Under the pieces are notes generated by a model. It worked only from the letters and a program-made list of their open reading frames with translations. It did not search any database and was not told the origin of the DNA. A stretch of 64,000 nt of DNA from Blastococcus colisei (GTDB lineage Bacteria; Actinomycetota; Actinomycetes; Mycobacteriales; Geodermatophilaceae): positions 3,286,001-3,350,000 of the forward strand of contig NZ_VFQE01000001.1 in the NCBI RefSeq assembly GCF_006717095.1. Reading direction: 5' to 3'. Shown here one piece after another: positions 1,122 to 60,528 of this stretch (position 1 is its first letter; every line of letters begins with the position of its first letter). Both the position numbers and the translations under genes were made by a program.

Positions 1122-1469
1122 TATAAGACTAGACGAGACGGCGCCCAAGCGGACCTGGGGAGCAGCGATCCGTGCCCGGAGCACCCGAGCCGGCTCGGCG
1201 GCGGGCCAGCCGGAGGCGTGTCTCACCCGCTCCCGGGCCACGCTCGGGTCAGGACCATGCCGGGGGGCGATCATCGCGTCGGCCTGCCGGTCTCGGTCAG
1301 GAGCGCATCACGGTGGGGCACGAGGGATCCTGGGTCTGGTCGGGTGCTTGGCGGCTCCCCCCACCAAACCCGGAGGCCCCTCCTCACATCAGGATCAGTC
1401 GCTCAGCGACTCCCCGCACCAACCTGTCCGAGCAGTCAGCTGCCGTGGGCCCGTGTGGCGTCACCTGCG

Positions 1470-1750
1470 TGCGCCGCAGCTGTCCGTGGCGCCGCGGGAC
1501 CAGCTCGGCCTCATCGCCGGGGAGGTCGACGGCATCGACGTGACCGGACGGACCCGACGGCAGGGCCGGCCAGCGCCGCCGAGGCACCGTCCCGCAGCAG
1601 GCGTCGAGCGCCGGCTCCCCGGGCTGCAGGTCGACCGGGACCACGGTGGCCTGATCCAGGGGATCCCACCGAAGCGGCGCTCAGACGGCAGAAGTCGCTG
1701 GCCGCTCGGTCAAACGCCCCGGCCCAGCGCGCCGGCGCCTCCGGCTCGGC
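1470..1750 (-). pseudogene. Frameshifted remnant of a SAM-dependent methyltransferase
   Basis: Two minus-strand frames together spell the start of a class I methyltransferase. One frame (about 1680-1750) gives AFDRAASDFCRLS. After a frame change near 1675 the other gives WDPLDQATVVPVDLQPG and then the SAM-binding glycine motif LDACCGT, followed after another shift by GHVDAVDL. No single frame carries both, and nothing recognisable follows. It therefore looks like a decayed gene, lying between znuB and ctpC. Sequencing error is less likely because at least two shifts are needed and the C-terminal half is missing. Confidence 0.55.
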
Positions 1751-1763
1751 TCCCCCGGGAGGT

Positions 1764-6554: not shown

Positions 6555-6874
6555 GCTCGATGTATCGGCAACTCGCCCTCAAGCCTTTAGGCACAATCGG
6601 CAACCGGGACACGAACCACCCGACAAGGTGACTCGGAGGGCCGCCGCGAATCGCAGCAGCTGTGCCGGCGACAGCGGCGCGGCCGAGTCCTTGCGGGGGC
6701 GGTCAGCACGGCCCGTATGGGAGTCCGGGCGAGGTCGAAGCAGCCAGTCCAACTGGATCCGGCCCCGGCCCTCGTTGCAGCGCGGGCTGGAGGCCGGCGG
6801 CGAACTCGGTATCGGCTCCGGGCACGGACCGGTGCACCACTTCTCCGGGATCTGGCCGGACTGACCCGCTGCGG
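6555..6874. other. Intergenic, no gene seen
   Basis: Spacer between the start of the protease gene and the end of the bluB-cobT gene, both on the minus strand. It probably holds the protease promoter. A short inverted repeat (CTGACC/GGTCAG) at 6861-6878 spans the bluB-cobT stop region but is too weak to call a terminator. Confidence 0.4.
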
Positions 6875-8632
6875 TCAGAAGTCGACCCGCGCGGTGCCGC
6901 GCCGGAGCGCGAGGCCGTCGAGGAGCAGGCCGGTGGCGAGAGAGGCGCCTACGCCTTCACCAGCGCGCATCCGTAGGTCCAGCAACGGCTCGCACCCCAG
7001 GTGCTCGAGGACGAGGACATGCCCCCGCTCGCGGCTGCGCTGTCCGGCGATCAGGCACGCCTGGACGGCGGGCTCGAGCTGCACGGCCACCAGGGCCGCC
7101 AGCGAGACGGCAAAGCCGTCGACGACGACGACCGCGCGCGCCTGGGCGGCCCCCGAGGCGACCCCGGCGAGCACCGCCAGCTCAGGGCCCCCGAGTTCGG
7201 CCAGGGCCGTCAGCGGATCGTCGTCCAGCGCCGGATGGCTCCGTCGCGCCCGGCCCAGCGCGGCGGAGACCGCGTCCCGCTTGCGATCGAGCATGGCCGC
7301 GTCTGCGCCGGATCCGAGGCCGGTCACCTCGTCGGGGTTGGCGCCGAGCAGCGCACAGGCGAGGGCGGCCGCCACGGTGGTGTTGGCGACGCCGATCTCG
7401 CCGAGCGCGACGATGCCTGTGGTCCCGACTTCACGTCCCAGCCCGCGCCCGGCTTCTACCAGGCGCCGGGTGTCGGCGACCGTCATCCCCGGCGTGTTCA
7501 CCAGGTCCCCGCGGAGTCCCCACGGTCGCAGGGCCGTGACACCGGGGACCGGTTCCCCGGCCACGCCGGCATCGACGATCCTCAGCCCCAGGCCGACCGT
7601 TCGCGCGGCCGTGGCACCGAGCGACGTCCCCGCGACGGCGGCACGCAACAAGTCCCCGGTGATGGTCGGGTCGTAGGGGGAGACCTCGTGCGACGCGACG
7701 GGATGGTCTGCGGCGGCCAGGACCAGCACCCCGCCGGTGGCCGCGCCGCGGCCCAGCGCGATGGCGCGGTCAACGGCCCGGTCCAGGACCCCCAGGGAGC
7801 CGGGAACAGCGAGCAGCCGATCGGCCTCGTCACGAGCGCCGACTACCGCCGGTTGATCGGGCGCGCGCAGCCGTGACGGCGGTACGGGCGGCGCGCCGGC
7901 ATCGTCGGGCCATCGGTCGGCGAGCACGACGTCGCGCAGCGCGAGCCGCCGCGACCAGCCTGCGCGTTCCAGGCCCGGCGCGGGCGGGCGTTCGTCGGGC
8001 CAGCCGAGGCACAGCCAGCCCAAGGTGACCACGCCGTCGGGCAGGCCGAACAGTTCGGCCAGGTCCTCGGGCTGGAAGAGCGTCACCCAGCCGAGGCCCA
8101 GCCCCTCGGCCCGCGCGGCCAGCCACAGGTTTTGGATGGCCGCCGCGCAGCTCCACAGGTCGGCGTCGGGGAACGTAGCCCGGCCCAGCACCCCCGCGGC
8201 GGGGGTGCGTCGGTCACAGCAGACGACGATCCCGAGCGGGGCCTCTCGGACACCTTCGAGCTGCAGGTCGAGGAGACGACGAGCCGCGTCTGCGTCGAGT
8301 CCGGCGGCCTGACGCAGCCGCTCACGATCGGTGAGGACGGCCGCCCGGTCCCGGATCTCCGGATCGCGGACAACGAGGAACCGCCAGGGCTGGCTGTGCC
8401 CGACCGACGGAGCGGCGTGCGCGGCCCCGAGGACTCGCTGCAGGACCTCGTCGGGCAGCGGGTCTGGACGGAACCGGCGGACGTCCCGCCGGACCCCGAT
8501 CGCCTCGTACAGCCCCGCCCGGGCCTCGGTCCCCAGCGCCCAGCCGGTCGGGTCGGCGGCCCGCTCGGAGGCCGCGGTCGCATCACCGACGAGCGGCACC
8601 GGCCGGGGCCACACCCGCTCGTCCGGCGTCAC
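6875..8632 (-). CDS. Fused BluB-CobT: DMB synthase / nicotinate-nucleotide:DMB phosphoribosyltransferase
   Basis: This 585-residue protein joins two cobalamin enzymes. Residues about 30-245 match BluB, a flavin-destroying nitroreductase-fold enzyme that makes 5,6-dimethylbenzimidazole (DMB) from FMNH2 and O2 (GVRRDVRRFRPDPLPDEVL, APSVGHSQPWRFLVV). Residues about 255-585 match CobT, which couples DMB to nicotinate mononucleotide to give alpha-ribazole phosphate. The CobT part has the GEIGVANTT loop and the C-terminal GCEPLLDLRMRAGEG segment carrying the catalytic glutamate. The fusion would hand DMB straight to the enzyme that activates it. It starts four bases after thiC, so the two are probably one transcript under the TPP riboswitch. 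Confidence 0.9.
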   Translation of the reverse strand: MTPDERVWPRPVPLVGDATAASERAADPTGWALGTEARAGLYEAIGVRRDVRRFRPDPLPDEVLQRVLGAAHAAPSVGHSQPWRFLVVRDPEIRDRAAVLTDRERLRQAAGLDADAARRLLDLQLEGVREAPLGIVVCCDRRTPAAGVLGRATFPDADLWSCAAAIQNLWLAARAEGLGLGWVTLFQPEDLAELFGLPDGVVTLGWLCLGWPDERPPAPGLERAGWSRRLALRDVVLADRWPDDAGAPPVPPSRLRAPDQPAVVGARDEADRLLAVPGSLGVLDRAVDRAIALGRGAATGGVLVLAAADHPVASHEVSPYDPTITGDLLRAAVAGTSLGATAARTVGLGLRIVDAGVAGEPVPGVTALRPWGLRGDLVNTPGMTVADTRRLVEAGRGLGREVGTTGIVALGEIGVANTTVAAALACALLGANPDEVTGLGSGADAAMLDRKRDAVSAALGRARRSHPALDDDPLTALAELGGPELAVLAGVASGAAQARAVVVVDGFAVSLAALVAVQLEPAVQACLIAGQRSRERGHVLVLEHLGCEPLLDLRMRAGEGVGASLATGLLLDGLALRRGTARVDF

Positions 8633-10476: not shown

Positions 10477-10899
10477 GCGAAAGGGACCCTAGACCTTGCC
10501 CCCGGGCGGCCCGCCACGACCCCGACGAGTCCTGTCACGCGAGCATCGCCACGGCGGCGGAGGCCGGCGAGCTACGTGGTGACCGCGTCCCGGTCCCGCT
10601 CCCGGGCGCACGAGCGCACGAGCACACGAGCGCGACCTGACCACCTACAGCTGCCAGTGGTCCACGGCGGAGGACCGGACCGGGAGGGCGGCGGGGGCCC
10701 TTCTCGCCACTTTCCGCGGGCTGGGCTGGGCGCGGACTCGAGTCAAGCAGCCAGCCGCGTCGAAGAGGCACGTTCCCGGGGAGGATGACCGACTCGATCG
10801 TTGATGCCTCAGGCTGCGACCCGCGGTTCCGCCATGCTCAAGACCGCACCTGTCGCTGCCGATGAATGAGCCGACGTCCATTCGAGCCGGAGGTGCCGG
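10477..10899. other. Intergenic between divergent thiC and ECF sigma genes
   Basis: About 420 bases without a convincing gene. It should hold the promoter of the thiC operon (reading left) and of the sigma factor (reading right). I could not fix -35/-10 boxes. Confidence 0.4.
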
Positions 10900-11457
10900 A
10901 TGTCAGTAGGGATGCCCTTCCCCGGGGTGCTGGCGGCCGCGCAGGCGGGCGCCTCCTGGGCGCTGGAGGTGCTCTATCGGGAGCTGGCGCCCTCCGTGAC
11001 CGGCTACCTGCGGCTGCACGGCGCTCTGGAGCCGGATGACCTGGCCAGTGAGACGTTCATCGGGGTCTTCAACGGCCTGTCCTCGTTCGAGGGGGACGAG
11101 GCCGCGCTGCGCGCCTGGGTCTTCACCATCGCGCACCGCCGCCTGATTGACGACTGGCGGCGCAGGAGTCGCCGACCCGAGCTGGTCGACTGCGGTGAGG
11201 AGGTCCTGCGGGGCTCCGTCGGCGGCGACGCCGAGGATGACGCACTCGCGGTGCTGGGCTCAGGCGCCGTCCAAGAGATGTGTGCCGCCCTGCCCGCCGA
11301 TCAGCGCACGGTCCTGCTGCTGCGCATCCTCGCCGACCTGTCCGTCGAGCAGGTCGCCTCCGTGATGGGCCGCTCCGCGGCAGCGGTCAAGGCGCTGCAG
11401 CGGCGAGGACTGGTCACCCTTCGGAGTGAGCTCGTGCAGGAGGTCGCGCCCCTATGA
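10900..11457 (+). CDS. ECF-type RNA polymerase sigma factor
   Basis: This 185-residue protein has the two-domain layout of an extracytoplasmic-function sigma factor. Region 2 is at about 20-90 (ELAPSVTGYLRLHGALEPDD, LRAWVFTIAHRRLIDDWRRR) and region 4 at about 130-180 (LPADQRTVLLLRILADLSVE, then the HTH segment VASVMGRSAAAVKALQRRGL). A GGAGG-like site precedes the ATG. Its stop overlaps the next gene by four bases (ATGA), so that gene is very likely its regulatory partner. The target genes are unknown. It differs clearly from the second, SigC-like sigma factor at 37.2 kb. Confidence 0.88.
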   Translation: MSVGMPFPGVLAAAQAGASWALEVLYRELAPSVTGYLRLHGALEPDDLASETFIGVFNGLSSFEGDEAALRAWVFTIAHRRLIDDWRRRSRRPELVDCGEEVLRGSVGGDAEDDALAVLGSGAVQEMCAALPADQRTVLLLRILADLSVEQVASVMGRSAAAVKALQRRGLVTLRSELVQEVAPL

Positions 11458-12344
11458 GCCGGTCCAGCGATGTCGGGGATGAGATGACCAACGACCAGTT
11501 CGACGAGGCTTTCGAGTGCTTCCTCGTGGGACGACCCGTCCCGGCAGAGGCCGCTCCGCTCGTGGCATTCGCCGAGACGGTCCGGAACAGCTCCGCCCGT
11601 CCCGGGCGGCCCAGCCCGCAGCTGGCCGAGCTGCTGGCGACCGGTCTTCTCACCGATCCCGTCGGCCCGTCGACGGGGACGACCCCCACTGCTCCGGAGT
11701 CCGCGCGCGCCGCGGCCCCCGGGCCATCCACAAGGAGACGCCGCACAATGTTCACCGTCCTCGCCGCCGCCGCGGCCAAGTTCGCCTCTGCCGGAGTCGC
11801 TGCCCAGGCCGCGACCGGCGTGGGACTTGCGCTAGTCAGCGTGACCGGTGCCGGAGCCGCCGGGGTCCTGCCCGCTTCCATCCAGGACGGTGTCGCAGAA
11901 GTGATCGAATCCGTCACCCCCTTCGACCTGCCCGAGGCAGCCGATCGTCCGGTTCTCCCCGAGCAGGCCACCGTGCCTCACCCCGACGAGACAAGGCGCA
12001 CACCCGAGGACCTGCCCGGTCCTGGGGACGTCCCCACCAAGGAGCAGTTCGGTACGTCCGTCAGGGAGGACGCGCAGGACGGCGGTGTCGACGGTGCGCA
12101 GGTCAGCACTGACGCCCGCGAGACCCACCAGCCCGAGCAGCCGGCGACCCCGGGAACCCGGGCCGCCGAGCGTCCGTCCGAACAGCCGGCGACCCCGGAA
12201 ACCCGGGCCGCCGAGCGTCCGGCCCAGCAGTCTGCGGCCCCCCCGGCGCCCGAGACCCCCGGGGCGCCCGAGCCCTCGAGCGGAGGATCCGCGCGGCAGG
12301 GTTCTGCGGACGGTCAGGCGCAGGGCAGCTCCGGCCGGCCCTGA
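11454..12344 (+). CDS. Putative membrane partner of the ECF sigma factor, with Pro/Ala/Glu repeat tail
   Basis: This 296-residue protein is translationally coupled to the ECF sigma gene, the position of an anti-sigma factor. A cytoplasmic-looking N-terminus (1-95, with a helical NDQFDEAFECFLVGRP start) leads to one hydrophobic segment at about 103-135 (AAAAAKFASAGVAAQAATGV). After that comes a long, low-complexity region rich in Pro, Ala, Glu and Thr, with an imperfect tandem repeat of EQPATPxTRAAERP (about 222-255). No zinc-finger motif is present. I recognise no named family; the anti-sigma role is inferred from position and topology only. A terminator follows at 12385-12425. Confidence 0.7.
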   Translation: MSRSSDVGDEMTNDQFDEAFECFLVGRPVPAEAAPLVAFAETVRNSSARPGRPSPQLAELLATGLLTDPVGPSTGTTPTAPESARAAAPGPSTRRRRTMFTVLAAAAAKFASAGVAAQAATGVGLALVSVTGAGAAGVLPASIQDGVAEVIESVTPFDLPEAADRPVLPEQATVPHPDETRRTPEDLPGPGDVPTKEQFGTSVREDAQDGGVDGAQVSTDARETHQPEQPATPGTRAAERPSEQPATPETRAAERPAQQSAAPPAPETPGAPEPSSGGSARQGSADGQAQGSSGRP

Positions 12345-13768: not shown

Positions 13769-13873
13769 CCCCCTCCGACCTGACACACCTCATGCATCAC
13801 GGCCCGAACCGCCCCTGATCGAGGCGCCGCGGCGCCGGCCCGTGGCAGACGGGCTCGCGACTGTGGGGTCGTG

Positions 13874-16800
13874 ATGACGCTGCACAAGCTCACCGCGGGG
13901 GACGGATACACGTATCTGACCCGCCAGGTGGCTGCGCACGACGCCACCACCCGCGGGTTCGACAACCTGGGCGCCTACTACAGCGAGAAGGGTGAGGCTC
14001 CGGGCGTCTGGATGGGACGCGGGCTTGCCGCCGTGCCCGATTTTCCGGTCGGTGATCGGGTCACCGAGGCGCAGATGGTCGCGCTGTTCGGGGAGGGGCG
14101 GCACCCGAACGCCGACCAGATCGAGCGCGATGCGCAGCTGGCCGGCAAGAACCCGCAGGAGGTCGATCAGGCCAGCCGCCTGGGCGCGCCCTACCGCATT
14201 CACGAGCAGGCGAACATGTTCCACCGCCGCTCGGCAGGGGCGTTCCGCGACCACAACACCGCGCTCGGCCTGCCCGCCGACACCCCCGTGCCGGCCGAGG
14301 AACGAGCCCGCATCCGCACCGAGCTGGCCTCGGCGATGTTCGTCGAGACCTACGGCCGCCCCCCGGCCGACGCCCGCGAGCTGTCCGGTCACCTGGCCCG
14401 CATCTCCCGCCAGGCCACCACCGCGGTCGCCGGGTACGACCTGACGTTCAGCCCTGTCAAGAGTGTGTCCACGCTGTGGGCGATCGCCCCGCAAGAGGTC
14501 GCGGCCGTCATCGAGCAGGCGCACGCCGACGCCGTGGCAGACACCCTGGCCTGGTTGGAGGACCACGCCGCCTACACCCGCACGGGCCGTAACGGAGTGG
14601 CGCAGGTGGAGGTACGCGGGCTGATCGCGGCGGCGTTCACCCACCGCGACTCGCGCGCCGGCGACCCGGATTTGCACACCCACGTGGCCGTCAGCAACAA
14701 GGTGCAGACCCGCGACGGGCGGTGGCTGGCGCTGGACGGTCGACTGCTCTACAAGAACAACGTCACCGCCTCCGAGCGGTACAACACCCGCCTGCAGGCC
14801 CTGCTCACCGAGCGGCTCGGCGTCTGCTTCGCCGGCCGCCCCGGCGCGGATCCGAACAAGCGGCCGGTGCGGGAGATCGTCGGCGTCGACGGCGAGCTGC
14901 CCCGGCTCTGGTCGTCGCGGCGAGCGTCGATCGATACCCGCCGCGCGGCGCTGTCGGCAGAGTTCCAGGCCGACCACGGGCGGCCGCCGACGCCGAAAGA
15001 GGCCGTGTCCCTGGCGCAGCGGGCCAATCTCGAGACCCGGCAGCGCAAGCACCAGCCCCGCTCCTACGCCGAGCAGCGCGCCGCCTGGCGCACCGAGGCG
15101 CTGGCGGTGCTGGGCGGGGAGAGCGGTCTGCGTGACTACCTCCACGAGGCACTCGCCCCCCGCCGCGGACCCCTGGCGAAGCTCCCGACGCGTAGGTGGC
15201 TGGACCAGACCGCCCAGCACGTGCTGTCGGCGGTGCAGAGCTCGCGTGCGACCTGGCAGGTGAACCACGTGCGCGCGGAGGCCGAGCGGCAGGCCCGCGC
15301 CGCCGCGATCCGGCTGACCGACCTCGACGGAGCCATCGACGCCGTCGTGGACAGGGCGCTGTCCCTGTCGACGCCGTTGGGCAGCCGCGAGCCGGTGACC
15401 GAGCCCCCGGCGCTGCGCCGCTCGGACGGCAGCTCCGTCTACACCGTGGCCGGCTCGACGCTGTACACCTCGACCGCGATCCTCGCCGCCGAGCGGGCCA
15501 TCCTCGCCGCGGCCGGACGCCGCGACGGACGCGTGGTGCCGGCCGCGGCTGTCGACGTCGCGCTGCTGGAGTCCACCGCCAATCGGGTCGAACTCAACCC
15601 CGGCCAGGTGCAGCTCGTCCGCGAGCTGGCAATCTCCGGCGCCCGGGTGCAACTGGCACTGGCCCCGGCAGGCACCGGCAAGACCACCGCCCTTCGCGCG
15701 CTCGCTGCGGCGTGGCGGGCCGACGGCGGGAACGTGGTCGGCCTTGCTCCCTCGGCAGCTGCGGCGGCGGTGTTGGGTGAGGAAGTCGGCACCGACACCG
15801 ACACTCTCGCCAAGCTGATCCACGCACTGGCCACCGGCAGCGCCGTCCCGACCTGGGTCGCCCGCATCGGCCCGGACAGCCTCGTGGTCATCGACGAAGC
15901 GGGCATGGCCAGCACTTCCGACCTGGCCCGGGCGATCGCGTTCGTCACCGAGGCCGGCGGGTCGGTCCGGCTGATCGGCGACGACCAGCAGCTGGCCGCG
16001 ATCGGCGCCGGCGGAGTGCTGCGCGACATCGTCGCCACCCACGGTGCGGTCACCCTCTCGCAGGTACTGCGCTTCACCGACCCTGACACCGGCGCCCCCG
16101 ACCACGCCGAAGGCGCCGCGTCCCTGGCGCTGCGCGACGGCGACCCGGCCGCCCTTGCCTACTACATCGATCACGGACGGGTGCACGTCGGCGATCTGGC
16201 CACGGTCACCGGTGACGCCTACACCGCCTGGTCGACCGACCGGGCCGCCGGGCGCGACGCCATCATGCTGGCGCCCACCCGCGAGCTGGTCGCCGAATTG
16301 AACACTCGCGCCCGCCGCGACCGCCTCGCCCAGCAGAACGACCCGGTCGGGCCTCAGGTCACCCTCGCCGATTCCTCGCAGGCCTCCGCCGGGGATGCGG
16401 TCATCACCCGCCGCAACGAGCGCACCCTTGCCATCAGCGCGACCGACTGGGTCAAGAACGGCGACCGGTTCACGGTCACCGCCGTCCGCGATACCGGCGC
16501 CCTCGACGTCGTCCACCAGCGCACCGGACGGCGCCTGACCCTGCCTGCCGATTACGTCACTGACCACGTCAGCCTCGGCTACGCCACCACCGTCCACGGG
16601 GCACAAGGCCTCACCGCCGACACCTGCTACACCGTCGCCACCGGCGAGGAGTCCCGCCAGCTGCTCTACGTCGCCCTGACCCGCGGCAGGCACGCCAACC
16701 ACGTCTTCCTCACCACCGCCGGCGACGGCGACCCGCACAGCGTGATCACCCGCGACGCGCTGCTGCCGCCTACCGCCGTCGACGTCTTGACTCGTGTGCT

Positions 16801-19477
16801 CGCTCGCGACGGCGCCCCGACCTCGGCCACCAGCCAGGCCCGCGCGCTGGCCGATCCCGCCGCTCTGCTCTCTCACGCCGCAGATCGGTATTACGACGCG
16901 CTCAATGCCGCCGCGGAGGACCGCCTCGGGCTGGAGGCGCTCGAGGCCATCGACGCTGCCGCCGACGCCGCGATGCCGGGCCTGACCACGCAGGCTGCCT
17001 ATCCCGTCCTGCGCGCGCACCTGGCGCTGTGTGCGGTCTCCGGCCGTGATCCCTCCGAAGTGCTCGGGCAGGCCCTGGCCTCGGGTCGAAGTGTGGACGA
17101 CGCCCGCGATGTGGCCGCGGTCCTGGACTGGCGTATCGACCCCACCGGGCGACACTCGGCTGGGACCGGCCCCCTGCCGTGGCTGCCCGCCCTTCCGAAG
17201 ACGCTCGGTGACGACCTCGAGTGGGGCCCCTACCTCGCCAACTCCGCCGACCAGGTCACCTCACCGGCCGGCGACGTCGCCGCCCGTGCGCGCACCTGGA
17301 CCCCGAACAGCGCCCCTACGTGGGCGCTTCCGCTCATCGACCGCGATTCCCAGCTGGTCGCCGACCTCGCCGTCTGGCGCACCGCCCACGGCGTTGACGA
17401 CACCGACCGGCGTCCCACCGGTCCGGCGCTGCCACGCACCGCCGACGCCCGAACCCAGCGGGCGCTCGACGACCGCGTCACGCGGCTGCTCGGCGATGGG
17501 CGCACGCTCACCGCACGATGGGCGCCGCTCGTCGACAGCATCGACCCACGCATCGCTGGCGACCCCTACTGGCCGATCCTGGCCGAACGGCTCGCCGTCG
17601 CCGACCGGGCCGGCATCGACATCACCGCGATTACCCACGCCGTGGCCGCCGAACGTCCCCTACCGGACGAGCAGCCCGCCGCCGCGCTGTGGTGGCGACT
17701 GTGTCGGCACCTCTCCCCCGCCGCGATGACCGCCAACGGTGGCTCCGTCTCCGAGACGCTGCGCCCGGAATGGACTCCAGTCCTGGCCGACGTCGTCGGC
17801 CCGGTAGCCGCCGAGCGGGTGGTCGCCGACCCTGCCTGGCCCGCGCTGGTTGCCGCCGTCACCGCCGCTCGCGGCGCCGGCTGGCAGCCCGACCAGGTGC
17901 TGTCCACGGCCCATGACCTGCTGCGCGCTGGTCATCCCGACGACGATCAACTGCGCCCGGACGAGCTGGCCACCGCCCTGGTGTGGCGGATCCGCGTGCT
18001 CACCGATCCGGCGTCTGCCGCAGGCACCCACGCACCGATGTCGCCGTCCGACCTCGATCTGCTGCCTACAGCCAACGGAGTTGCCGACGACGACTGGCTG
18101 GCCGGTCTTGTTGAACCCGACGACGCCGAAGTGCTCCATGGACAGCTGGACGGCGACGACCCGGCAGCTGCCGAGCACCCCGTCACGGGACTCGATAGCC
18201 GAGCCACCGACGCTCGCCGTCGAGCCGCAGCCGACCGGCCCGACGAGGGAGTTCGCGTTGACCGGCACCGCCTCCTGGAACTCAACCAGCAGGCCGCCGA
18301 CTTCTTCACCGCTCACTTCCGCGACTCCTGGGCACCGGCCTACCTCACCGACCGGCTCGGCACCGACCTTGCCGACGACGAGCGGTTCACCCTGGGCTAC
18401 GCACCCGTGGGCTGGACCGCGCTGACCAGTCACCTGCGCCACCTCGGCGCCACCGACGCCGAGATCGTCGCCGCCGGCCTCGGCAGCTACGCCTCCACCG
18501 GCCGGGTCATCGACCGCTTCCGCAACCGGCTTGTCTTCGCCATCCGCGACGGCGAAGAGATCCACGGCTGGATCGGCCGCCGAAACCCCGACCACGAGCA
18601 GGACGGGAACAACGCCGTCCCCAAGTACCTCAACACCGCGGTGACCGAGCTGTTCGCCAAGGGTCACGAGCTGTACGGCCTTAGCGAAGGAGCCGCTGCA
18701 CTGGCCGCCGGCGCCGTCCCGGTCATCGTCGAAGGCCCCCTCGACGCGCTGGCAGTCACCCTCGCCGGCGACGGCGACTACGTCGGCATCGCCCCACTGG
18801 GCACTGCCTTCACCGACGCGCAGACCGAGGCGCTACGCCCATTCCTCGGCGATGGAAAGCGCGGGATCATCGTCGCCACCGACGCCGACCGTGCCGGACA
18901 GCAGGCCGCCCAGCGCATCTTCTGGCAACTCACCGCCCGTGGCGACGATCCCCGCCACCTCGCCATCCCGACCGGCAAGGACCCCGCCGAACTGCTGCAG
19001 ACGGCCGGCGCCACCGCTCTGCGTCAGGCCCTCGCGGCCTCTCCCAGCCTGGCCAGCGCGCTCATCGATGCCCGCGTCGCCGTCTACGCCGACCGGCTGG
19101 ACACCGTCGAAGGCCGGGTGTACGCCGCCCGCCGCGCCGCGGAGGTCATCGCCGCTGTCCCGTCAACGAGTTGGCCGGCGCACCTCACCCACGTCGTGGC
19201 CCGCACCGGTATCGCGCCCGACATCGCGCTGTCGGAAGTCCTCGACGCCGCTCGGACTCGGACAGAAGATGATCGGGTGCCGGCACGGACAGCGTCGCCC
19301 GGCCGGCTGCTCGAGCCGGCCACTGATCCGGCATTGGAGCCCCGCGTCCCCGTGATGTCCGCAGCGGAGACAGGGTCGAAAACTCTGGCCGACAGCGTGC
19401 AGGCGGCGCAGCGGGTTGCATCCGGGCGGCCACCTTTTCGCCCCCCAACTCGGCCGAGGCCACGCCAACGGTTCTGA
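13874..19477 (+). CDS. MobF relaxase-helicase fused to a DnaG-like primase (TrwC/TraI family)
   Basis: This 1867-residue conjugative relaxase has paired N-terminal tyrosines (YTYL, near residue 13) for nicking. The three-histidine metal site lies in AFTHRDSRAGDPDLHTHVAV (about 255-272). The helicase part has Walker A APAGTGKTTALRAL (about 598), Walker B VVIDEAGMAS (about 670) and late motifs YATTVHGAQGLT and LLYVALTRGRHAN. Unlike classical TrwC, the C-terminus (about 1465-1800) adds a DnaG catalytic core: a YLTDRLGTDLADDERFTLGY stretch and a Toprim domain with VIVEGPLDALA and ATDADRAGQQA. No zinc-binding CHC2 module is seen. The chain should nick, unwind and possibly prime the transferred strand. 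The ATG at 13874 is preferred over the adjacent GTG at 13871 by similarity to family starts (MTLHKL). Confidence 0.92.
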   Translation: MTLHKLTAGDGYTYLTRQVAAHDATTRGFDNLGAYYSEKGEAPGVWMGRGLAAVPDFPVGDRVTEAQMVALFGEGRHPNADQIERDAQLAGKNPQEVDQASRLGAPYRIHEQANMFHRRSAGAFRDHNTALGLPADTPVPAEERARIRTELASAMFVETYGRPPADARELSGHLARISRQATTAVAGYDLTFSPVKSVSTLWAIAPQEVAAVIEQAHADAVADTLAWLEDHAAYTRTGRNGVAQVEVRGLIAAAFTHRDSRAGDPDLHTHVAVSNKVQTRDGRWLALDGRLLYKNNVTASERYNTRLQALLTERLGVCFAGRPGADPNKRPVREIVGVDGELPRLWSSRRASIDTRRAALSAEFQADHGRPPTPKEAVSLAQRANLETRQRKHQPRSYAEQRAAWRTEALAVLGGESGLRDYLHEALAPRRGPLAKLPTRRWLDQTAQHVLSAVQSSRATWQVNHVRAEAERQARAAAIRLTDLDGAIDAVVDRALSLSTPLGSREPVTEPPALRRSDGSSVYTVAGSTLYTSTAILAAERAILAAAGRRDGRVVPAAAVDVALLESTANRVELNPGQVQLVRELAISGARVQLALAPAGTGKTTALRALAAAWRADGGNVVGLAPSAAAAAVLGEEVGTDTDTLAKLIHALATGSAVPTWVARIGPDSLVVIDEAGMASTSDLARAIAFVTEAGGSVRLIGDDQQLAAIGAGGVLRDIVATHGAVTLSQVLRFTDPDTGAPDHAEGAASLALRDGDPAALAYYIDHGRVHVGDLATVTGDAYTAWSTDRAAGRDAIMLAPTRELVAELNTRARRDRLAQQNDPVGPQVTLADSSQASAGDAVITRRNERTLAISATDWVKNGDRFTVTAVRDTGALDVVHQRTGRRLTLPADYVTDHVSLGYATTVHGAQGLTADTCYTVATGEESRQLLYVALTRGRHANHVFLTTAGDGDPHSVITRDALLPPTAVDVLTRVLARDGAPTSATSQARALADPAALLSHAADRYYDALNAAAEDRLGLEALEAIDAAADAAMPGLTTQAAYPVLRAHLALCAVSGRDPSEVLGQALASGRSVDDARDVAAVLDWRIDPTGRHSAGTGPLPWLPALPKTLGDDLEWGPYLANSADQVTSPAGDVAARARTWTPNSAPTWALPLIDRDSQLVADLAVWRTAHGVDDTDRRPTGPALPRTADARTQRALDDRVTRLLGDGRTLTARWAPLVDSIDPRIAGDPYWPILAERLAVADRAGIDITAITHAVAAERPLPDEQPAAALWWRLCRHLSPAAMTANGGSVSETLRPEWTPVLADVVGPVAAERVVADPAWPALVAAVTAARGAGWQPDQVLSTAHDLLRAGHPDDDQLRPDELATALVWRIRVLTDPASAAGTHAPMSPSDLDLLPTANGVADDDWLAGLVEPDDAEVLHGQLDGDDPAAAEHPVTGLDSRATDARRRAAADRPDEGVRVDRHRLLELNQQAADFFTAHFRDSWAPAYLTDRLGTDLADDERFTLGYAPVGWTALTSHLRHLGATDAEIVAAGLGSYASTGRVIDRFRNRLVFAIRDGEEIHGWIGRRNPDHEQDGNNAVPKYLNTAVTELFAKGHELYGLSEGAAALAAGAVPVIVEGPLDALAVTLAGDGDYVGIAPLGTAFTDAQTEALRPFLGDGKRGIIVATDADRAGQQAAQRIFWQLTARGDDPRHLAIPTGKDPAELLQTAGATALRQALAASPSLASALIDARVAVYADRLDTVEGRVYAARRAAEVIAAVPSTSWPAHLTHVVARTGIAPDIALSEVLDAARTRTEDDRVPARTASPGRLLEPATDPALEPRVPVMSAAETGSKTLADSVQAAQRVASGRPPFRPPTRPRPRQRF

Positions 19478-19728
19478 CGTCTGAGGATTTGGCTCGCAGC
19501 GCTCCTACCCCGATTAGGCAGCCTGCCCCCCTGAGGGCGGCTTCAGGGCAATGTGGCGAGCGCGCGGAGGCGTGGCCAGGAGAGAGCCGCTGCGCCGTCA
19601 GTGATGGGGGTATCAGCGCCGAGCGCACCCGCTATTACCGCTCGCAGCGGTGCCCGGACTTTGAACAACCGACGCTGCCGGCCGTGCCCGATCGTCGACC
19701 CCTTGCTTCGCCGGATTTGGGGCTACGC

Positions 19729-20865
19729 TCAACGGAACGTTTGGCGGATAACGCCAACCCAGATGCTCACAGTCTCCTCGTCGCGAGACTTCAGTAGTCT
19801 CATGTGAGAGAGCCTATTCCGGACTGGAAGAACCTGCTCCCTAAACTTTTGCCAGATGTGCGAGGCGACGCCTAAGCCACCTATTCGCGTAGACGTAATG
19901 ACGTCGAGCAGTTCTGACAGTGTCAGCCACTCAAGCGGGTCGCGCAATTCGCGAACGCTCACGGCTGACAGGCTTGAGTCCAGTTGTGCTCGCTTGAGTA
20001 CTTCGGTCGCCAAGCCGCCGACAGCGGCGACCCTCCAGCGTTCCCCTTCTGACTGGGAGACGTGCCGCCGCAGAGCTGACCGCATCGTACGTTCAATGAA
20101 CCACAGTCCACTGCTGACCGCTGCAAGCTCGGCGGGAGCGTCGGTTAGAGTGCCGAGAAGATGAGCTACTGCCGCCTTAATCTCGGCCAGAGACCGGCGA
20201 TTAGCCAATTCGATGCCGCCATCGGACGAAACGACTATGAGACCAGCCCCGCGTAAGGCCTCCGTCTCGCGAATTGACAAGAAAGAGAGGCCGTTCGATG
20301 AGCGTGGGTCTATCTCGAACAGACAGTGGTCGAGGGCGCTCAGCACCCCAGTCCCCAACTCGCCGAGTACCTTTTCCATGAGATCGCCGTCTTGCTCCCC
20401 GAACGACGCCTCCGGGAGGTGCCATAGCGGGGCCCGCTCTTCTGTACCGCTAAGCTCACTCTCGTCGAGGAAATCAAGTAGAGCGAGTGATGCGTCCTCC
20501 AGCAGCGAACTGCCGGGCACACTTCCAAAAGCGACGCGTGGGGCGGTCGACACAAGGCAAACCCGGTGCCCATTGTCTAATAGACGCAACGAGCGTTCGC
20601 GGAGCGCACTCAGTCGGTCACTGCCGTTGGCGGCGAGGGATAGCGATTCTACATTACAGATTGCAATCGTGGAGGGCGGCTGCTCGTCGAACCCCGCCAG
20701 GACCTCCTCAACACTCACGACCGTGTCCGCGATTAGTTCCAGAAGATCACTGCGCAGTACGCGGAAGCTTGAGCCTAGCTGCAGAAAGACAAGTCGATGC
20801 CGGGCTAAGCTAGCCTCCAGCCGCCCCGCGCGTCGCTGCAATACAGCCTTGAGCGCCTCGCTCAT
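19729..20865 (-). CDS. Swt1-type HEPN-domain protein, second gene of a putative defence pair
   Basis: This 378-residue protein ends in a domain of about 120 residues that looks like the Swt1-type HEPN fold: LWFIERTMRSALRRHV (about 254-269), LEWLTLSELLDVI (311-323) and then FREQVLPVRNRLSHMRLL, which holds the HEPN RNase signature R349-x4-H354. The N-terminal 130 residues read like a P-loop NTPase fold that has lost its Walker A (HRLVFLQLGSSFRVLR, then a hydrophobic strand STIAICNVESL where Walker B would be). It overlaps the upstream ATPase gene by four bases (ATGA). Base composition is clearly lower in GC than the rest of the window. A toxic RNase controlled by the ATPase is the natural reading; it is inference. 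Confidence 0.7.
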   Translation of the reverse strand: MSEALKAVLQRRAGRLEASLARHRLVFLQLGSSFRVLRSDLLELIADTVVSVEEVLAGFDEQPPSTIAICNVESLSLAANGSDRLSALRERSLRLLDNGHRVCLVSTAPRVAFGSVPGSSLLEDASLALLDFLDESELSGTEERAPLWHLPEASFGEQDGDLMEKVLGELGTGVLSALDHCLFEIDPRSSNGLSFLSIRETEALRGAGLIVVSSDGGIELANRRSLAEIKAAVAHLLGTLTDAPAELAAVSSGLWFIERTMRSALRRHVSQSEGERWRVAAVGGLATEVLKRAQLDSSLSAVSVRELRDPLEWLTLSELLDVITSTRIGGLGVASHIWQKFREQVLPVRNRLSHMRLLKSRDEETVSIWVGVIRQTFR

Positions 20866-22430
20866 ACAAGGCTCAGGACGGTTGTCGTCTCGTACCCTCT
20901 CCCGTCCTCCTGGATCAAACCTAGGTTGATCAAGTGCTGAAGAGCCAGCGGATACTCGTTGGCGAGGTCGTCGAAGGCTTCAGGTTCATCCTGTAAAGCG
21001 TCTAGCAGTATCCCTTCGATGGGATAATAGCGCCTGACATGATTCAGCATTTCACTAAGGTTGCCAGCCACGGAGCGCTTCCATGAGCCGAGTGCACGAA
21101 GCACGTCGCCGCGGGTCACCCTTCGCTGAAATACGTCTACCGGCAGCGTTTGAACTACGTTGGACGCGAGGCTGCGATACAGGAAGGCGTGACCGCCCGT
21201 AGCTTCAAAAAAGGCCTGCAGTGCACCTTGCTCGATCTCGATCCCCATTCTACCGCCCAGGGAGACGGCCAGTTCATCCGCCTCGCCTCGATCAAATGGA
21301 GAAAGATAGTGAGTCTTGGCCCAGCTGAAGAGCGGATTTGGGCGCCCGTACAATCTCCCACTCTCAACTATGGCACTAGTTAGACCCGACACCACAAAAG
21401 TAAAATTCCCGTTTTCTTGAACTAGGCTCCGGAGCACTCCCAGGAACTGTGCGATGCTAGGCATCGCCCCCTCTTCTATGTCGATGCGATCCGAGGGCGT
21501 GAGGTATTCGATCTCATCTAGCATGAGCACTACGTCAACTTCCCGGAGGGCTAGTGAGCGCAAAGTCGACTGCACGGCTCGCCGGAACTCCGAGAGGTCT
21601 GCGTCCCTCGACAACTGGCGCAGACCTGTGACATCGAAGTGTCGTATGCCCAATTGGTCAATGAGGTCCGCCACGAGATCCCGAATGAGGCCTGGGATCG
21701 GATCCTCGGGAGGAGATGGCAGACTTTCCAAGTCCCGCAGGATAATCATCCGCTTTGAATCTTGCATGGTTTCGGCGAGCTGAGTCAAAACGCTCGTCTT
21801 CCCAGCTTTTCGCAACCCAAAGAGCCCAGCCACTCGTCGAGACGTGACGTCATCTCTCAAGCTGCGCAACAACTGCCGCCTACCGAAGAAGCTATCGCCT
21901 CGGACCGGAGTCGACTCGTAAAACAGGTCTCGTGCGTAGATGTAATCCCGAAGAACGGAAATCAGTGAAACTGGCGAGCTGCTTGTAGCATTCGCTAGGG
22001 GGATGGCCAGGACCCGCCCTCCCTGTGACCAGTCGTCCAGCTTCTGCCGCGCTCGCGGATCGGGTGACCATATGAAAATGATGTCGGGCGTTATGTCTCG
22101 ACGAGCCATCTTTATTGCCGTCTTGGCCGCTTCGAATTCCCTGATTTGGAGGTCGGCGTACGGACTGTAGAAGAACATGACCTCGCGCGTCAGCCCGAAG
22201 GCCAACTCGATTGCGCCCGAGAACCTGACCAGAGCCCAATGACAGTCGCGCAGCCCATTCACTTCAGATCTCTGGGTGTACACCATCTGAGAGCCGAGCT
22301 GTTCGAGTATAAGGCGGTGATCCTCGACGATCGGGAATTGTCGTTCGAGCCGGCGAAGAGCTTCGTGCAGTTTTGGATTCGAGGTTGGCCTCACCGCACC
22401 GGCGGTCCAACCACTTGATGGGTGAGTCAC
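20862..22430 (-). CDS. STAND-like AAA ATPase, first gene of a putative defence pair
   Basis: This 522-residue protein has an ATPase core opening with the FFGRRQLLRSL entry (about 181-191) usual in archaeal-type/STAND NTPases. It is followed by Walker A GLRKAGKT (205-212), Walker B VVLMLDEIEYL (300-310), a sensor-like FTFVVSGLTSAI (344-355) and a C-terminal winged-helix-like region (about 455-520). The N-terminal 170 residues are not recognised; they contain VMFFYSPYADLQIREFEAAK and DIIFIWSPDPRARQKLDD, which could be a sensing or nuclease-like domain. Low GC and many rarer codons mark recent transfer. It starts the two-gene operon with the HEPN protein and lies between the relaxase and the secretion operon, a typical cargo slot. 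Confidence 0.75.
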   Translation of the reverse strand: MTHPSSGWTAGAVRPTSNPKLHEALRRLERQFPIVEDHRLILEQLGSQMVYTQRSEVNGLRDCHWALVRFSGAIELAFGLTREVMFFYSPYADLQIREFEAAKTAIKMARRDITPDIIFIWSPDPRARQKLDDWSQGGRVLAIPLANATSSSPVSLISVLRDYIYARDLFYESTPVRGDSFFGRRQLLRSLRDDVTSRRVAGLFGLRKAGKTSVLTQLAETMQDSKRMIILRDLESLPSPPEDPIPGLIRDLVADLIDQLGIRHFDVTGLRQLSRDADLSEFRRAVQSTLRSLALREVDVVLMLDEIEYLTPSDRIDIEEGAMPSIAQFLGVLRSLVQENGNFTFVVSGLTSAIVESGRLYGRPNPLFSWAKTHYLSPFDRGEADELAVSLGGRMGIEIEQGALQAFFEATGGHAFLYRSLASNVVQTLPVDVFQRRVTRGDVLRALGSWKRSVAGNLSEMLNHVRRYYPIEGILLDALQDEPEAFDDLANEYPLALQHLINLGLIQEDGRGYETTTVLSLV

Positions 22431-22711
22431 TTTTCATCCTCTTGTGGTGGGGCCGACCCAGATACAATAGTCCGGTTCGGCTTCGGTTGAAGCTGGCGTC
22501 AGCCCGGGTGATCGGTTATGTGTGTTCGAGGACTTCGGTGCGGCCATCGTAAGCATGGGTCAGCGCGAACCACGGATTAAGCGTGAGGGGAGTGAACGAA
22601 AGACTCGTCGAGTCTGGAATCGCGTCCCATCACAAGGTCGCCGAAGGTTCGGACAGTTCCCTGCAGCGCCGACCTCCGCCGCTCGGCCACAGTCGCAGCC
22701 GTAGGGCAACC

Positions 22712-23404
22712 CTAGGGCCGGCTGGCCAACAGGCTGGCAACGGTGCTGGTTGCCTGCAGGTACTGACCCAGTTGGGGATCGAGACGGGCGGCGACGCCAA
22801 TTAGGTCGGCCAGTCGTCCGGCGACGTCGGTGGTCAGCAGGGGTTCATGGTGGGCCACGCGGTTACGCAGATCGTGCAGGCGGCCGACCGGACCGTCGAC
22901 ATGGACGGCGCGGTCGGTGCCGGACGGGAAGGCGCGGTGCAGCGCGGGCACCCACAGGGTCTTCTCGTGCGCCGCGGAGCTGAGGTAGCGCCAGAAGCCG
23001 AACATGAGCTCGGCGACGATCTTTCCTGGCGGGGCGGTCCGGCCGCCGGCGTTGGCGATCGCATGGCGCAGGCTGTCCCGGGGCTTGTCGTTGACGTCGA
23101 CGCGGCGTCGTCCGCGCGTGCGGTAGACCGGAGCGAAGACGGCGTTTGCAGCCAGCGTCCAGTGCGGAGGCCCCGGCCAGCGGGCGGACAGGGCGACGTC
23201 GTAGGCGTTGCGCAGCCCGACCTCCACGTGCGCCAGGTCGTGGAGCAGCGCGTCGCTGAGTTGGGCGTTCCACTCGTACAGAGCTAACGCCCGGTCTCGG
23301 TCCGCGCTCGCAGCGGTTAGGTAGACCGCGAATCGCGGGGCACTGAGCCAGGCCTCCACCCAGCGACCGGCCGGCGGGAAGGCCGGTGGCGTCGGCGTTG
23401 TCAT
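22712..23404 (-). CDS. Abi-family (AbiD/F-like, HEPN) abortive infection protein
   Basis: This 230-residue protein matches the Abi_2-like pattern. An early helical segment (WLSAPRFAVYLTAASADRDR, ALALYEWNAQLSDALLHDLA) is followed by HVEVGLRNAYD (about 60-70). A middle FGFWRYLSSAAHEKTLW (about 135-150) and a late LHDLRNRVAHHEPLL complete it; the last contains RNRVAH, the R-x4-H signature of HEPN ribonucleases. Such proteins typically stop growth of phage-infected or plasmid-invaded cells by cutting RNA. GC content is high, unlike the pair beside it, so the two arrived separately. A hairpin at 23437-23478 separates it from the secretion operon. Confidence 0.75.
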   Translation of the reverse strand: MTTPTPPAFPPAGRWVEAWLSAPRFAVYLTAASADRDRALALYEWNAQLSDALLHDLAHVEVGLRNAYDVALSARWPGPPHWTLAANAVFAPVYRTRGRRRVDVNDKPRDSLRHAIANAGGRTAPPGKIVAELMFGFWRYLSSAAHEKTLWVPALHRAFPSGTDRAVHVDGPVGRLHDLRNRVAHHEPLLTTDVAGRLADLIGVAARLDPQLGQYLQATSTVASLLASRP

Positions 23405-23436: not shown

Positions 23437-23478
23437 AGCCCCGGTGGACCGCTGACCTCTGGTCATGTCGCCGGGGCT
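23437..23478 (-). terminator. Terminator-like hairpin at the end of the secretion operon
   Basis: An 8-base perfect stem (AGCCCCGG/CCGGGGCT) encloses about 26 bases that hold a smaller GACC/GGTC stem. On the minus strand it is followed by TTTCACG, on the plus strand by ACGTCTTTT, so it may work in both directions. It lies after the last secretion-operon gene and just before the Abi gene. Confidence 0.55.
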
Positions 23479-23540
23479 ACGTCTTTTCCTGGCCTCGTCC
23501 GCCCGTTTCCTCGCGGTGATCCGCTGGGCGCCTGCGCTGA

Positions 23541-24032
23541 TCATCGAGGGGAGGCGTCGAGGAAGGCGGTGTAGCGGCTTTCGGCGGGCCAGTCCTGGTG
23601 CCGGCCGGTGCGGCAGGTGCTCTCCCCGAGCCGCTGGGCCATGCGATCGCAGAACATCGGGAAGGCGTACCGGTTCCATTCCTCCATCAGCTGGGGACCT
23701 GCTGCGTTCTCCGCTTCCCACCGCAGCACCGTCAGCACGGGCAGTTCCCGGGCGATGTGGGCGTGGCGGGGCCAGCAGACCGGGACCATCTGCGCGGGCC
23801 GCCACGCGTACTCATGGTTGATCCATGCGACGACGTCGTCACACCAGCTCCAGACCGCTGTGCTGAGCTCGCCGCTGCAGCCGGCGGGCTCCCAGGGGCG
23901 CTCCAGGTCGGCCACGGCGCCGGCTTGGGCCGCTCCCCCGCGGTCGCCTCGACGCGTGTTCCCCAGGAGTTCGAGCGCACGCAGCACCGCGAGGGGTGGC
24001 GGCGGGAACGGCAGGACGATCACCAGGACCAC
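23541..24032 (-). CDS. Hypothetical protein, last gene of the conjugation operon
   Basis: This 163-residue Trp-rich protein is not confidently assigned. Its second half (WSWCDDVVAWINHEYAWRPA, CWPRHAHIARELPVLTVLRW, CDRMAQRLGESTCRTGRH) looks like the small WCxxWW-type proteins often encoded beside actinobacterial conjugation genes. The start overlaps the end of the coupling-protein gene by 13 bases, so it belongs to that operon. No signal peptide is evident, although the first 15 residues are hydrophobic. Confidence 0.6.
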   Translation of the reverse strand: MVLVIVLPFPPPPLAVLRALELLGNTRRGDRGGAAQAGAVADLERPWEPAGCSGELSTAVWSWCDDVVAWINHEYAWRPAQMVPVCWPRHAHIARELPVLTVLRWEAENAAGPQLMEEWNRYAFPMFCDRMAQRLGESTCRTGRHQDWPAESRYTAFLDASPR

Positions 24033-25540
24033 GCCTCGGGCTGCGGTGCGGCCGGCGGGTCGGCCGGGTCGACGTGCCGGCTCGGGCCGAGCCGGTGATC
24101 GCGGGCGTATGCCAGCGCGGCAGCCGTGCGCTGCTCGACGTCGACGGTGTCGACGCGGGAGCGGCTGACCCGCGCACGGGCGGCGTCGAGCTCGGTCGTG
24201 AGCCGCTGACCGTCCTTGCCGTCGAGGCAGCGCCGCAAGCGGGCGACGATCGGCGGCGCGGTGCCTGCGACGACGAGAGCGTGCCGCTCGGGGATGCGAC
24301 GGATGTCGCCGGGGCGCAGCACCCGCACGTCCTCACCCGAGCGCGACGTGCCGATGCCGCCGGGTCCGTCGGTGACGGTCCGCCGGCTGATCCGCACGTC
24401 GTCGAGCAGGTCGGACAGTTCTCGGTAGAAGTGGACGTCCTTGCCGCCGCCGAAGATGACGAGGTTGTTGGTGAGCCCGAAGAGCGAGCGGGCCTCGTCC
24501 TCGCCGTAGGAGACGACCATCTGTTTCCAGGTCTGGGCGGCGTAGATGAACGAGAGCCCGAGCGCGCGTTCGTTGGCCATCCGCACCCGCAGGGTCGGCA
24601 GCGGCGTGGTGGACGGCAGTTCGTCGAGGCAGGCCAGGAAGCACGGGGTCAGGCGCCCGTGCGGCGAGGTGGTGGCGACGTGCAGGGCGGTGTCGAGGAC
24701 GTGTTCGGCGACCGCGGTCATCAGCGGTGCCGCCGAGGCGTAGGGGTCCTCCCGGCCGAGCAGGTACACCGTTCCCTGCCGAACGATCAGGTCGGCCAGA
24801 TCGGTCGCCGACCGTCCGCGCGAAGGCACGCAGCGCGCCCTGATGTCCGGCTGGAAGAACAGCGCCATCGCTTGCTGGACGGTGGTCACCGTGTTGCCGA
24901 CGGTGTCCGGGCTGCCGTGCAGGGCGCCGATCAGCAGCCCGTCCCAGAACCGGGCTGCGTGCGGATGCTGCTGCAGGATCTCGGCGGGCTGCTCGGCGGC
25001 GACGGGGTTAGCGACCCACTCCAGGACGTGCTCCAGGGTGCGGCTGGTGAGTGCCGCCGCGTGCAGGAAGCCCTGGAGCACCTTGGCGGTCTCCGCGGCG
25101 TAGAACCGGGCGGCGTTGTCCTGCCGGCCGCCGGTGACCGCGCCGGCGACGGTGCCGGCGGCGAACGCCTTGGCTCGTCGTTCGGCGATCCGAGGATCGA
25201 CGCAGCCGGCGACCGGATCCCACACCAGCTCCGGCAGCCCTGGTGCGGCGCCGAAAGGATCGAGCACCGCGACCGGGCGCGGCGGCTCGTCGGGACCAGA
25301 GGGCAGTTGACGCCGTCCGGCGGTCAGCAGCAGGTCGTCGACCTTGGTCAGCGTCGCCAGGCCGGCACCGCGGTGGGCCAGCAGGGCGGGAGCGAGCAGG
25401 TCGAGGGTCTTGCCGGACCCCTGCTCGCCGTAGACGCCGGTGGTGCGGTCGTAGCGGCACCACAGTTCCACCCCGTGCGGCTGGGAGGAGCGGCCCAGCC
25501 GCCAGCCGACGTCGGTCGGGTCGAACCCGGACGTGAGCAT
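24020..25540 (-). CDS. VirD4/TraG-like type IV coupling ATPase
   Basis: This 506-residue ATPase brings the relaxase-DNA complex to the secretion channel. It shows Walker A GEQGSGKT at residues 38-45, Walker B FLACLDELPS at about 301-310 and the conserved FIYAAQTWKQM and NNLVIFGGGKD segments of the TraM-recognition/TraG family. It lacks the N-terminal membrane helices of classical VirD4. A separate 206-residue membrane protein three genes upstream (27153-27773) could supply them, as in other split actinobacterial systems. It is followed directly by a small overlapping gene. Confidence 0.88.
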   Translation of the reverse strand: MLTSGFDPTDVGWRLGRSSQPHGVELWCRYDRTTGVYGEQGSGKTLDLLAPALLAHRGAGLATLTKVDDLLLTAGRRQLPSGPDEPPRPVAVLDPFGAAPGLPELVWDPVAGCVDPRIAERRAKAFAAGTVAGAVTGGRQDNAARFYAAETAKVLQGFLHAAALTSRTLEHVLEWVANPVAAEQPAEILQQHPHAARFWDGLLIGALHGSPDTVGNTVTTVQQAMALFFQPDIRARCVPSRGRSATDLADLIVRQGTVYLLGREDPYASAAPLMTAVAEHVLDTALHVATTSPHGRLTPCFLACLDELPSTTPLPTLRVRMANERALGLSFIYAAQTWKQMVVSYGEDEARSLFGLTNNLVIFGGGKDVHFYRELSDLLDDVRISRRTVTDGPGGIGTSRSGEDVRVLRPGDIRRIPERHALVVAGTAPPIVARLRRCLDGKDGQRLTTELDAARARVSRSRVDTVDVEQRTAAALAYARDHRLGPSRHVDPADPPAAPQPEAWSW

Positions 25541-60303: not shown

Positions 60304-60528
60304 CCAGGCCGTACGCCCAAAGCACACGCAGATCCGGTGCGGCACAGCGCTCGTACAGGCTGGGACTGCGTCAGGCGGGGAAGCATGACACGCGCTGGGA
60401 AGCGGGTTCTGTCGATGACCTGGTCGTGCTGCCGGCCGGGACACGCGCCCGTGCGGCCACCATCCATCGCACGGAACTTTCCTTTACAGTTGCACCCTGT
60501 CTGTATTGGTTAGTTCCGAGGAGATGTG

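Follow-up and report, generated by a model that had tools for sequence, protein, structure and literature searches.

A STAND-like ATPase and a HEPN-signature partner as likely defence cargo of an actinobacterial conjugative element

Introduction

What is the role of two overlapping, GC-poor genes that lie between the relaxase and coupling-protein genes of a GC-rich conjugative element? The question is raised by the window, a stretch of 64,000 nucleotides from Blastococcus colisei (contig NZ_VFQE01000001.1, positions 3,286,001 to 3,350,000), in which one gene encodes a STAND-like ATPase and the next a partner protein with a HEPN ribonuclease signature. An earlier note on this DNA had proposed the pair as a candidate for an undescribed defence or conflict system. 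Sequence comparisons indicate that the pair is real and conserved and that a defence role is likely. We consider it fairly probable that the two genes form a cassette for defence against phages or mobile elements, which the conjugative element carries as exchangeable cargo and which works as a STAND switch with a HEPN effector.

Results

The gene pair is conserved in order, overlap and motifs

The ATPase gene is the first of the pair (20862..22430, minus strand; 522 amino acids, GTG start), and the partner gene (19729..20865, minus strand; 378 amino acids) overlaps it by the four bases ATGA. The arrangement was found as the earlier note had described it, and all the motifs quoted there were present: the Walker A sequence GLRKAGKT and the Walker B sequence LMLDEIEYL in the ATPase and RNRLSH in the partner.

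Complete pairs were found at five loci, namely the window, Micromonospora arida (L002), M. parva (L004) and the genomes G200 (L006/L041) and G794 (L055). Gene order and the four-base overlap are the same in all five, and the conservation reaches down to 35% identity for the ATPase and 23% for the partner. The two Micromonospora copies are under purifying selection, with ratios of nonsynonymous to synonymous substitution (dN/dS) of 0.020 for the ATPase and 0.089 for the partner; the other comparisons were saturated or nearly so (window versus G200 partner: dS 3.03, ratio 0.243). The scan of genome contigs gave three relatives, the two Micromonospora loci and a truncated locus of Saccharopolyspora elongata (L003). 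The latter was rejected as a complete pair, since the ATPase similarity stops 131 bases short of the contig end; the locus reaches the contig edge and its partner cannot be judged.

The ATPase family is rare, since its profile matched at E<=1e-20 only the own genome in a phylum sample (1/396). At E<=1e-6 the ATPase was matched in 5 of 394 class genomes and 3 of 200 order genomes, both numbers including B. colisei itself. Distant single-chain relatives account for three of the class matches (G126, G187 and G255) and one of the order matches (G805). The partner profile matched two of the 394 class genomes including the own one, and both matches adjoin the ATPase gene.

The pair occupies a cargo slot used for defence genes in sister elements

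DNA alignment placed the pair in a variable slot (19552..22709) between flanks that are common to sister elements. The left border is the gene of a TrwC relaxase with helicase and TOPRIM/primase-like domains (13871..19477, plus strand; PF08751 4.5e-89), and to the right lies the gene of a type IV coupling protein of the TraD/TrwB type (24020..25540, minus strand; PF12696 4.2e-20). Of 200 order genomes, 16 have a coupling-protein match at E<=1e-100, and ten coupling-protein regions from nine or more genomes were compared, five of them close and five distant. In the five close sister elements the coupling protein is 94-96% identical and both flanks show 86-92% nucleotide identity. Their similarity to the window breaks off at 19469-19551 and resumes at 22710 (three elements) or at 23456-23488 (two elements).

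The pair is absent from all five close sisters. The neighbourhood survey that had been suggested as a check instead found defence-type cargo in the slot of each. G390 carries a Lamassu system (LmuA 1.2e-106, LmuC 8.8e-60, LmuB 2.5e-239) and G869 a Pycsar system (PycC 3.3e-96, PycTM 1.4e-26). G907 has a TIR gene (spbK model 1.1e-20) with further open reading frames (ORFs) without assignment; these lie at 10672..11508 (278 amino acids, no Pfam or PADLOC match) and 11489..11893 of locus L035, both on the minus strand. The slots of G822 and G913 are 99.3% identical and contain the same HNH-TPR gene (PDC-M68A model 3.7e-27, scanned with the G822 protein), at 8218..10674 of L031 (minus strand) and 3200..5656 of L034 (plus strand). 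The HNH end of this 818-residue protein matches PDC-M68A and CBASS HNH effector models, and the remainder is TPR or without a match. The five more distant regions are 65-77% identical over the matched parts and also lack the pair; a helicase-like gene was seen in L039, and one scanned ORF each of L037 and L038 gave no match. No convincing repeats flank the slot. From these alignments, this actinobacterial element family exchanges its cargo at the site between relaxase and coupling protein.

Foreign origin of the cargo was also indicated by its base composition. The GC content is 0.564 for the ATPase gene and 0.596 for the partner gene, compared to 0.709 and 0.728 for the neighbouring Abi_2-like and coupling-protein genes, which bears out the low-GC pair of the earlier note. 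At third codon positions the values are 0.635 and 0.649, the 1-kb GC profile drops to 0.558, and the slot as a whole has 0.587, compared to 0.610-0.635 in the five close sisters. The pair had been taken for recent cargo. The foreign cargo stands, but a recent date does not follow from the GC content: in the two Micromonospora loci the pair is equally GC-poor (0.545 and 0.546, compared to 0.656 and 0.673 around it), so the low GC is a mark of origin and not a date.

The ATPase has intact STAND motifs and a shared N-terminal domain

The ATPase was matched by the Pfam models AAA_22 (1.5e-5), AAA_16 (2.3e-5) and nSTAND1 (8.8e-5), all under their curated cut-offs. For nSTAND1 (PF20703) it reached 22.7 bits against a cut-off of 27.1, and the relative in L055 scored above it with 28.7 bits. 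The proposed STAND-like nature was supported when a nine-row family profile was compared with solved ATPases and matched 2fna (1.6e-11), 2qen (5.6e-10) and Cdc6 2qby (0.0027). In PADLOC-DB 2.0.0 the window ATPase matched only mad8 (1.6e-4) and PDC-S01 (0.0035), over 44-61 residues at the P-loop. The Walker A motif GLRKAGKTS (residues 205-213; 21792..21818, minus strand) has G205, R207, G210, K211, T212 and S213 invariant in all ten aligned sequences, and so are D305 and E306 of the Walker B motif VLMLDEIEYL (residues 301-310; 21501..21530, minus strand). R334 is likewise invariant (10/10) and precedes the presumed sensor-1 strand. R89 of the partner, invariant in 5/5, also precedes a presumed sensor-1 strand, and the two arginines may be candidate arginine fingers.

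The N-terminus of the ATPase had been described as unrecognised. Other proteins have it too: a stretch of about 115 residues ahead of the P-loop (residues 60-174; 21909..22253, minus strand) could be aligned in 13 of the 13 relatives tried, the distant ones weakly, and this domain is common to two-gene and single-chain relatives. The distant relatives have 13-31% identity here and two nearly invariant columns, and the region has an alpha/beta-looking pattern as judged by eye. The hhalign match to the Nostoc protein P0015 (2.4e-32) spans the second half of the domain and the ATPase core, and in P0005 only this second half is visible because the ORF starts later. The domain is a candidate sensor or assembly domain.

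An IF2_N domain precedes this region in two of the five near relatives, as seen in the domain scan (L003, 1.8e-10, 5794..7161; L006, 3.5e-12, 1201..3048). The ATPases of L002, L004 and L055 gave no IF2_N match, and none was seen by eye in the three same-strand frames upstream of the window ATPase and the two Micromonospora ATPases. The N-terminal part of IF2 has a 30S-binding role. The IF2_N domain on the ATPases of two relatives offers a clue to the signal that STAND proteins of this kind may detect.

The partner carries an invariant R-x4-H signature

HEPN ribonucleases are defined by R-x4-6-H, and some HEPN domains are inactive (PMC3710099). The partner has R-N-R-L-S-H at R349-H354 (19804..19821, minus strand), and the R-x4-H signature claimed for it is conserved in all five partners as RNRxxHMR, in agreement with that definition. 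R349, N350, R351, H354, M355 and R356 are invariant, and P-x-R-N-R-x-x-H-M-R is kept across all five, where the window partner and the others are 23-50% identical. By motif and conservation, the C-terminal half (19732..20148, minus strand) is HEPN-like. The assignment to the Swt1 type found no support, since PF18731 and every other Pfam HEPN model gave no match on the partner at E<=1, nor on its C-terminal half at E<=10, and these models were also without a match on the scanned partners of L002, L006 and L055.

The front half had been described as a dead-looking NTPase. Walker A is indeed absent, and a Walker-B-like strand, TIAICNVESL (residues 66-75; 20641..20670, minus strand), followed by an L-R helix, was recognised by eye; the corresponding strand is clearest in L006 (IVIDELES) and reads VITDIEVL in L002. 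Hhalign and other profile comparisons for such an eroded half gave nothing significant, so this part of the description holds by eye and not by profile, and the NTPase half is putative.

The ATPase core is constant and the effector varies among distant relatives

In distant relatives the ATPase core, at about 19-30% identity, is fused to Schlafen AlbA_2 (P0003) or to a protein kinase (P0004, P0005). The kinase-fused ORF of G255 overlaps an HSDR_N gene (6.3e-14), with preceding ORFs that look HsdM/HsdS-like by eye, and the AlbA_2-fused ATPase of G187 has a C5 methylase gene (1.6e-58) about 1.9 kb away. A C-terminal domain with R-x3-H was found on single-chain relatives in Klebsiella, Qingshengfaniella and Deinococcus plasmids, two viral contigs and one actinobacterium. 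Six of these proteins (6/6 with R-x3-H) were picked for alignment after the motif had been seen, and the incomplete L051 and the near-copy L053 were left out. P0012 gave a weak PDC-M34B match (0.0017).

Two-gene relatives whose second ATPase is intact were seen in L015, in L052 and in Nostoc (P0015/P0016). On the viral contig L015, the gene of P0017 (TPR, sub-threshold CSD, STAND) overlaps that of P0018, an ATPase that ends with R-T-D-K-A-H. P0018 was matched by the ATPase family with 2.4e-13 in hhalign and by HEPN_SAV2148 with 0.22, and the DNA of this pair had no match in E. coli genomes. In L052 (2854..4413, plus strand) the partner has pP_pnuc_1 (3e-11) in place of the R-x4-H end. Judged by these sequences, the ATPase core is constant across the relatives and the effector varies. 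No match was obtained in the phage collection with the queries P0001 and P0018, in plasmids with P0002, P0018 and the slot DNA, or in viral contigs with profile A2.

Homologues of the Klebsiella single-chain protein (94%) occur in 5 of 5426 E. coli genomes. All five copies (L054, L057-L060) lie between an integrase gene and psu, next to tRNA-Sec; insertion sequence elements are present in two of the loci, and the AAA-like gene is annotated as split in two of the five. The genes of the host elements suggest that they are P4-like satellites. The int-psu slot is an anti-phage hotspot and also holds an uncharacterised HEPN system (PMC9122126).

Discussion

A defence cassette is the favoured reading

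ATP-dependent assembly of STAND proteins (PMC8195603) and RNA cutting by HEPN proteins (PMC3710099) are established. Along these lines, the N-terminal region of the ATPase would sense the infection and, upon ATP binding, a STAND-type switch would assemble together with the HEPN-signature partner, whose front half may join as a subunit that is dead for nucleotide binding. The assembly would bring the HEPN domains together to cut host or phage RNA, and the cell would be arrested before phage progeny form. A defence role is favoured because the sister slots hold Lamassu, Pycsar, TIR and HNH-TPR cargo, because the partner is linked to the ATPase with R-x4-H invariant in 5/5, because ATPase relatives lie near HsdR and a C5 methylase and in the int-psu slot, and because the Micromonospora copies are under purifying selection.

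Several points weigh against it. The slot argument is one of association from five elements, two of them with nearly identical cargo. For the partner, both the HEPN fold and the dead-NTPase fold are predicted from motifs, and the protein had no match in Pfam, NCBIfam or PADLOC (E<=1) or in the PDB. The profile of its C-terminal half found a single GerE chain in the PDB (0.093), the comparison of its C-terminus with the C-terminal domains of the six single-chain relatives was not significant (hhalign 0.054), and a comparison with the second ATPases of relatives was not significant either (0.56). In the single-chain relatives the motif is R-x3-H, which lacks one residue compared to R-x4-6-H, and no HEPN model matches them; for this reason our confidence was lowered slightly.

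The same genes could also be a toxin-antitoxin or addiction module, in which the HEPN partner is an RNase toxin that is checked by the ATPase and stabilises the element in its host. The overlap of the two genes, the RNase-like signature and the location on a mobile element would fit such a module, and an AbiEi/AbiEii pair is also present in the window. However, a large ATPase with intact Walker motifs, whose core is fused to varied effectors in the distant relatives, fits a sensor-switch better than an antidote, and the slot swaps whole cassettes with Lamassu and Pycsar. We regard the addiction module as unlikely.

The signature itself has a second possible meaning, since HEPN domains can be inactive (PMC3710099) and the HEPN-like half might be non-catalytic and act by binding, as part of a nucleic-acid or ribosome sensor. 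Contacts to RNA or translation are hinted at by IF2_N in two near relatives and by TPR and the sub-threshold CSD in the viral-contig relative. This is quite improbable, as R349 and H354 are invariant in all five partners down to 23% identity. Equally doubtful is a role in conjugation or entry exclusion, with the pair controlling transfer or keeping rival elements out. The pair lies between the relaxase and coupling-protein genes, and in G200 a TrwC relaxase gene (1.1e-90) follows about 0.8 kb downstream of it, but the five close sister elements all do without the pair, so it is dispensable to the element family, and distant relatives occur in viral contigs, close to restriction or methylase genes and in P4-like satellites.

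The defence reading can be extended, tentatively and with rather low probability, to a family of modular immune switches that watch translation. They would consist of the N-terminal domain and the STAND ATPase, some with IF2_N or cold-shock/TPR in front, and would join a partner that is dead for nucleotide binding in a mixed ring. Disturbance of translation initiation by a phage would then release an exchangeable effector (HEPN RNase, Schlafen AlbA_2, protein kinase or predicted nuclease).

The pair is a variant of a predicted kind

In 2021 a mobile two-gene operon was predicted, in which one active STAND protein is accompanied by an eroded STAND fused to GT4 or HEPN (PMC8195603). The window pair resembles this nSTAND2 operon as a mobile two-gene unit, with its four-base overlap and variable cargo slot. 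It also has one STAND NTPase with intact motifs, its activity being predicted from the sequence, and a putative HEPN-type effector behind a putative, seemingly eroded NTPase. It differs in that the window ATPase had no PF20702 match at E<=1 and gave weak matches to AAA_22 and nSTAND1 instead. We have not filed the pair under the 2021 operon because the ATPase lacks this nSTAND2 match. Among all ATPases scanned, PF20702 matched only the distant P0017 (0.002; 17.9 bits against 24). A genome survey for nSTAND2 was uninformative (0/198), as all 14 controls were silent.

A 2013 table lists Swt1-like HEPN domains fused to STAND ATPase, TPR and S1 (PMC3710099). Common to these fusions and the present family are a HEPN effector (putative in the window partner), a STAND ATPase and RNA-binding and TPR accessories, and L015 is similar in make-up, with its weak CSD, TPR and STAND and the R-x4-H end of its second-gene ATPase. 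Unlike these fusions, the window partner has no Swt1 HEPN match, TPR or S1, and its HEPN signature is on a separate chain. Single-chain ATPases annotated as 'AAA-like', from Klebsiella plasmids and from the P4-like satellites of E. coli, have the N-terminal domain and STAND core in common with the window ATPase and bear a C-terminal domain with R-x3-H. They differ in being encoded by one gene, with about 23% identity over the ATPase and R-x3-H rather than R-x4-H, and their C-terminal domains have no significant profile similarity to the window partner. PARIS (AriA ATPase and AriB; PMC9122126) is likewise a two-gene ATPase and effector cassette, lying in an exchangeable anti-phage slot on a mobile element, but its ATPase is of the AAA_15/AAA_21 type and AriB is TOPRIM-like, and no PARIS-named PADLOC model matched the window pair.

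No one named anti-phage system in PADLOC-DB 2.0.0 was matched by both proteins. Thirty-one further validated systems, four with HEPN and seven with P-loop NTPase domains, include one CBS-HEPN (PMC13092281), and such a pair was not found in the available part of PMC7159879. In literature coverage that mostly excludes subscription journals, we recognised no tested HEPN/STAND pair, nor any experiment at the bench on the two-STAND operon predicted in 2021. The statement of the earlier note that this exact combination was not known to it is qualified by the 2021 and 2013 descriptions (PMC8195603, PMC3710099). Its proposal of an undescribed defence system is kept for the likely defence and given up for the undescribed kind, since a similar operon was predicted in 2021 (PMC8195603): the pair is a variant of a predicted kind and not a new kind. 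New here are the lineage of such pairs in actinobacteria and the family of its partner proteins, as well as the cargo slot and the occurrence of IF2_N on some of the ATPases. If the favoured reading is true, the pair represents a compact two-gene defence family of Actinobacteria with clear candidate catalytic residues for mutation, and the relaxase-side slot of actinobacterial conjugative elements is a place to seek further defence systems.

Further observations on the element

An Abi_2-like gene (22712..23404, minus strand; PF07751 2.7e-5, 25.0 bits against a cut-off of 25.6) lies beside the slot. Its protein has its own R-N-R-V-A-H and gave 0.087 with PF18731 (Swt1 HEPN). As a third member of the pair it was rejected, on account of its element-like GC content and its presence in three of the five close sisters without the pair; it was not found in the other two. 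It is perhaps itself (older) cargo.

In the B. colisei genome (5.16 Mb, four contigs) each of the two proteins matched itself alone. A promoter and terminator scan found no promoter-like site and one terminator-like site, compared to 3.1 expected. By eye, an integrase-like ORF was seen about 7.5 kb further along in G200, and the pair of G794 is flanked by one integrase-like and one transposase-like ORF.

The window also contains a type IV toxin-antitoxin pair of AbiEi_4 (8.2e-9) and AbiEii (2.3e-16) at 60526..61733 (plus strand). A second coupling-protein gene, 66% identical, is present elsewhere in the own genome (G000:C1:3678691-3680094) with an integrase-like ORF nearby, as seen by eye, and perhaps belongs to a second element.

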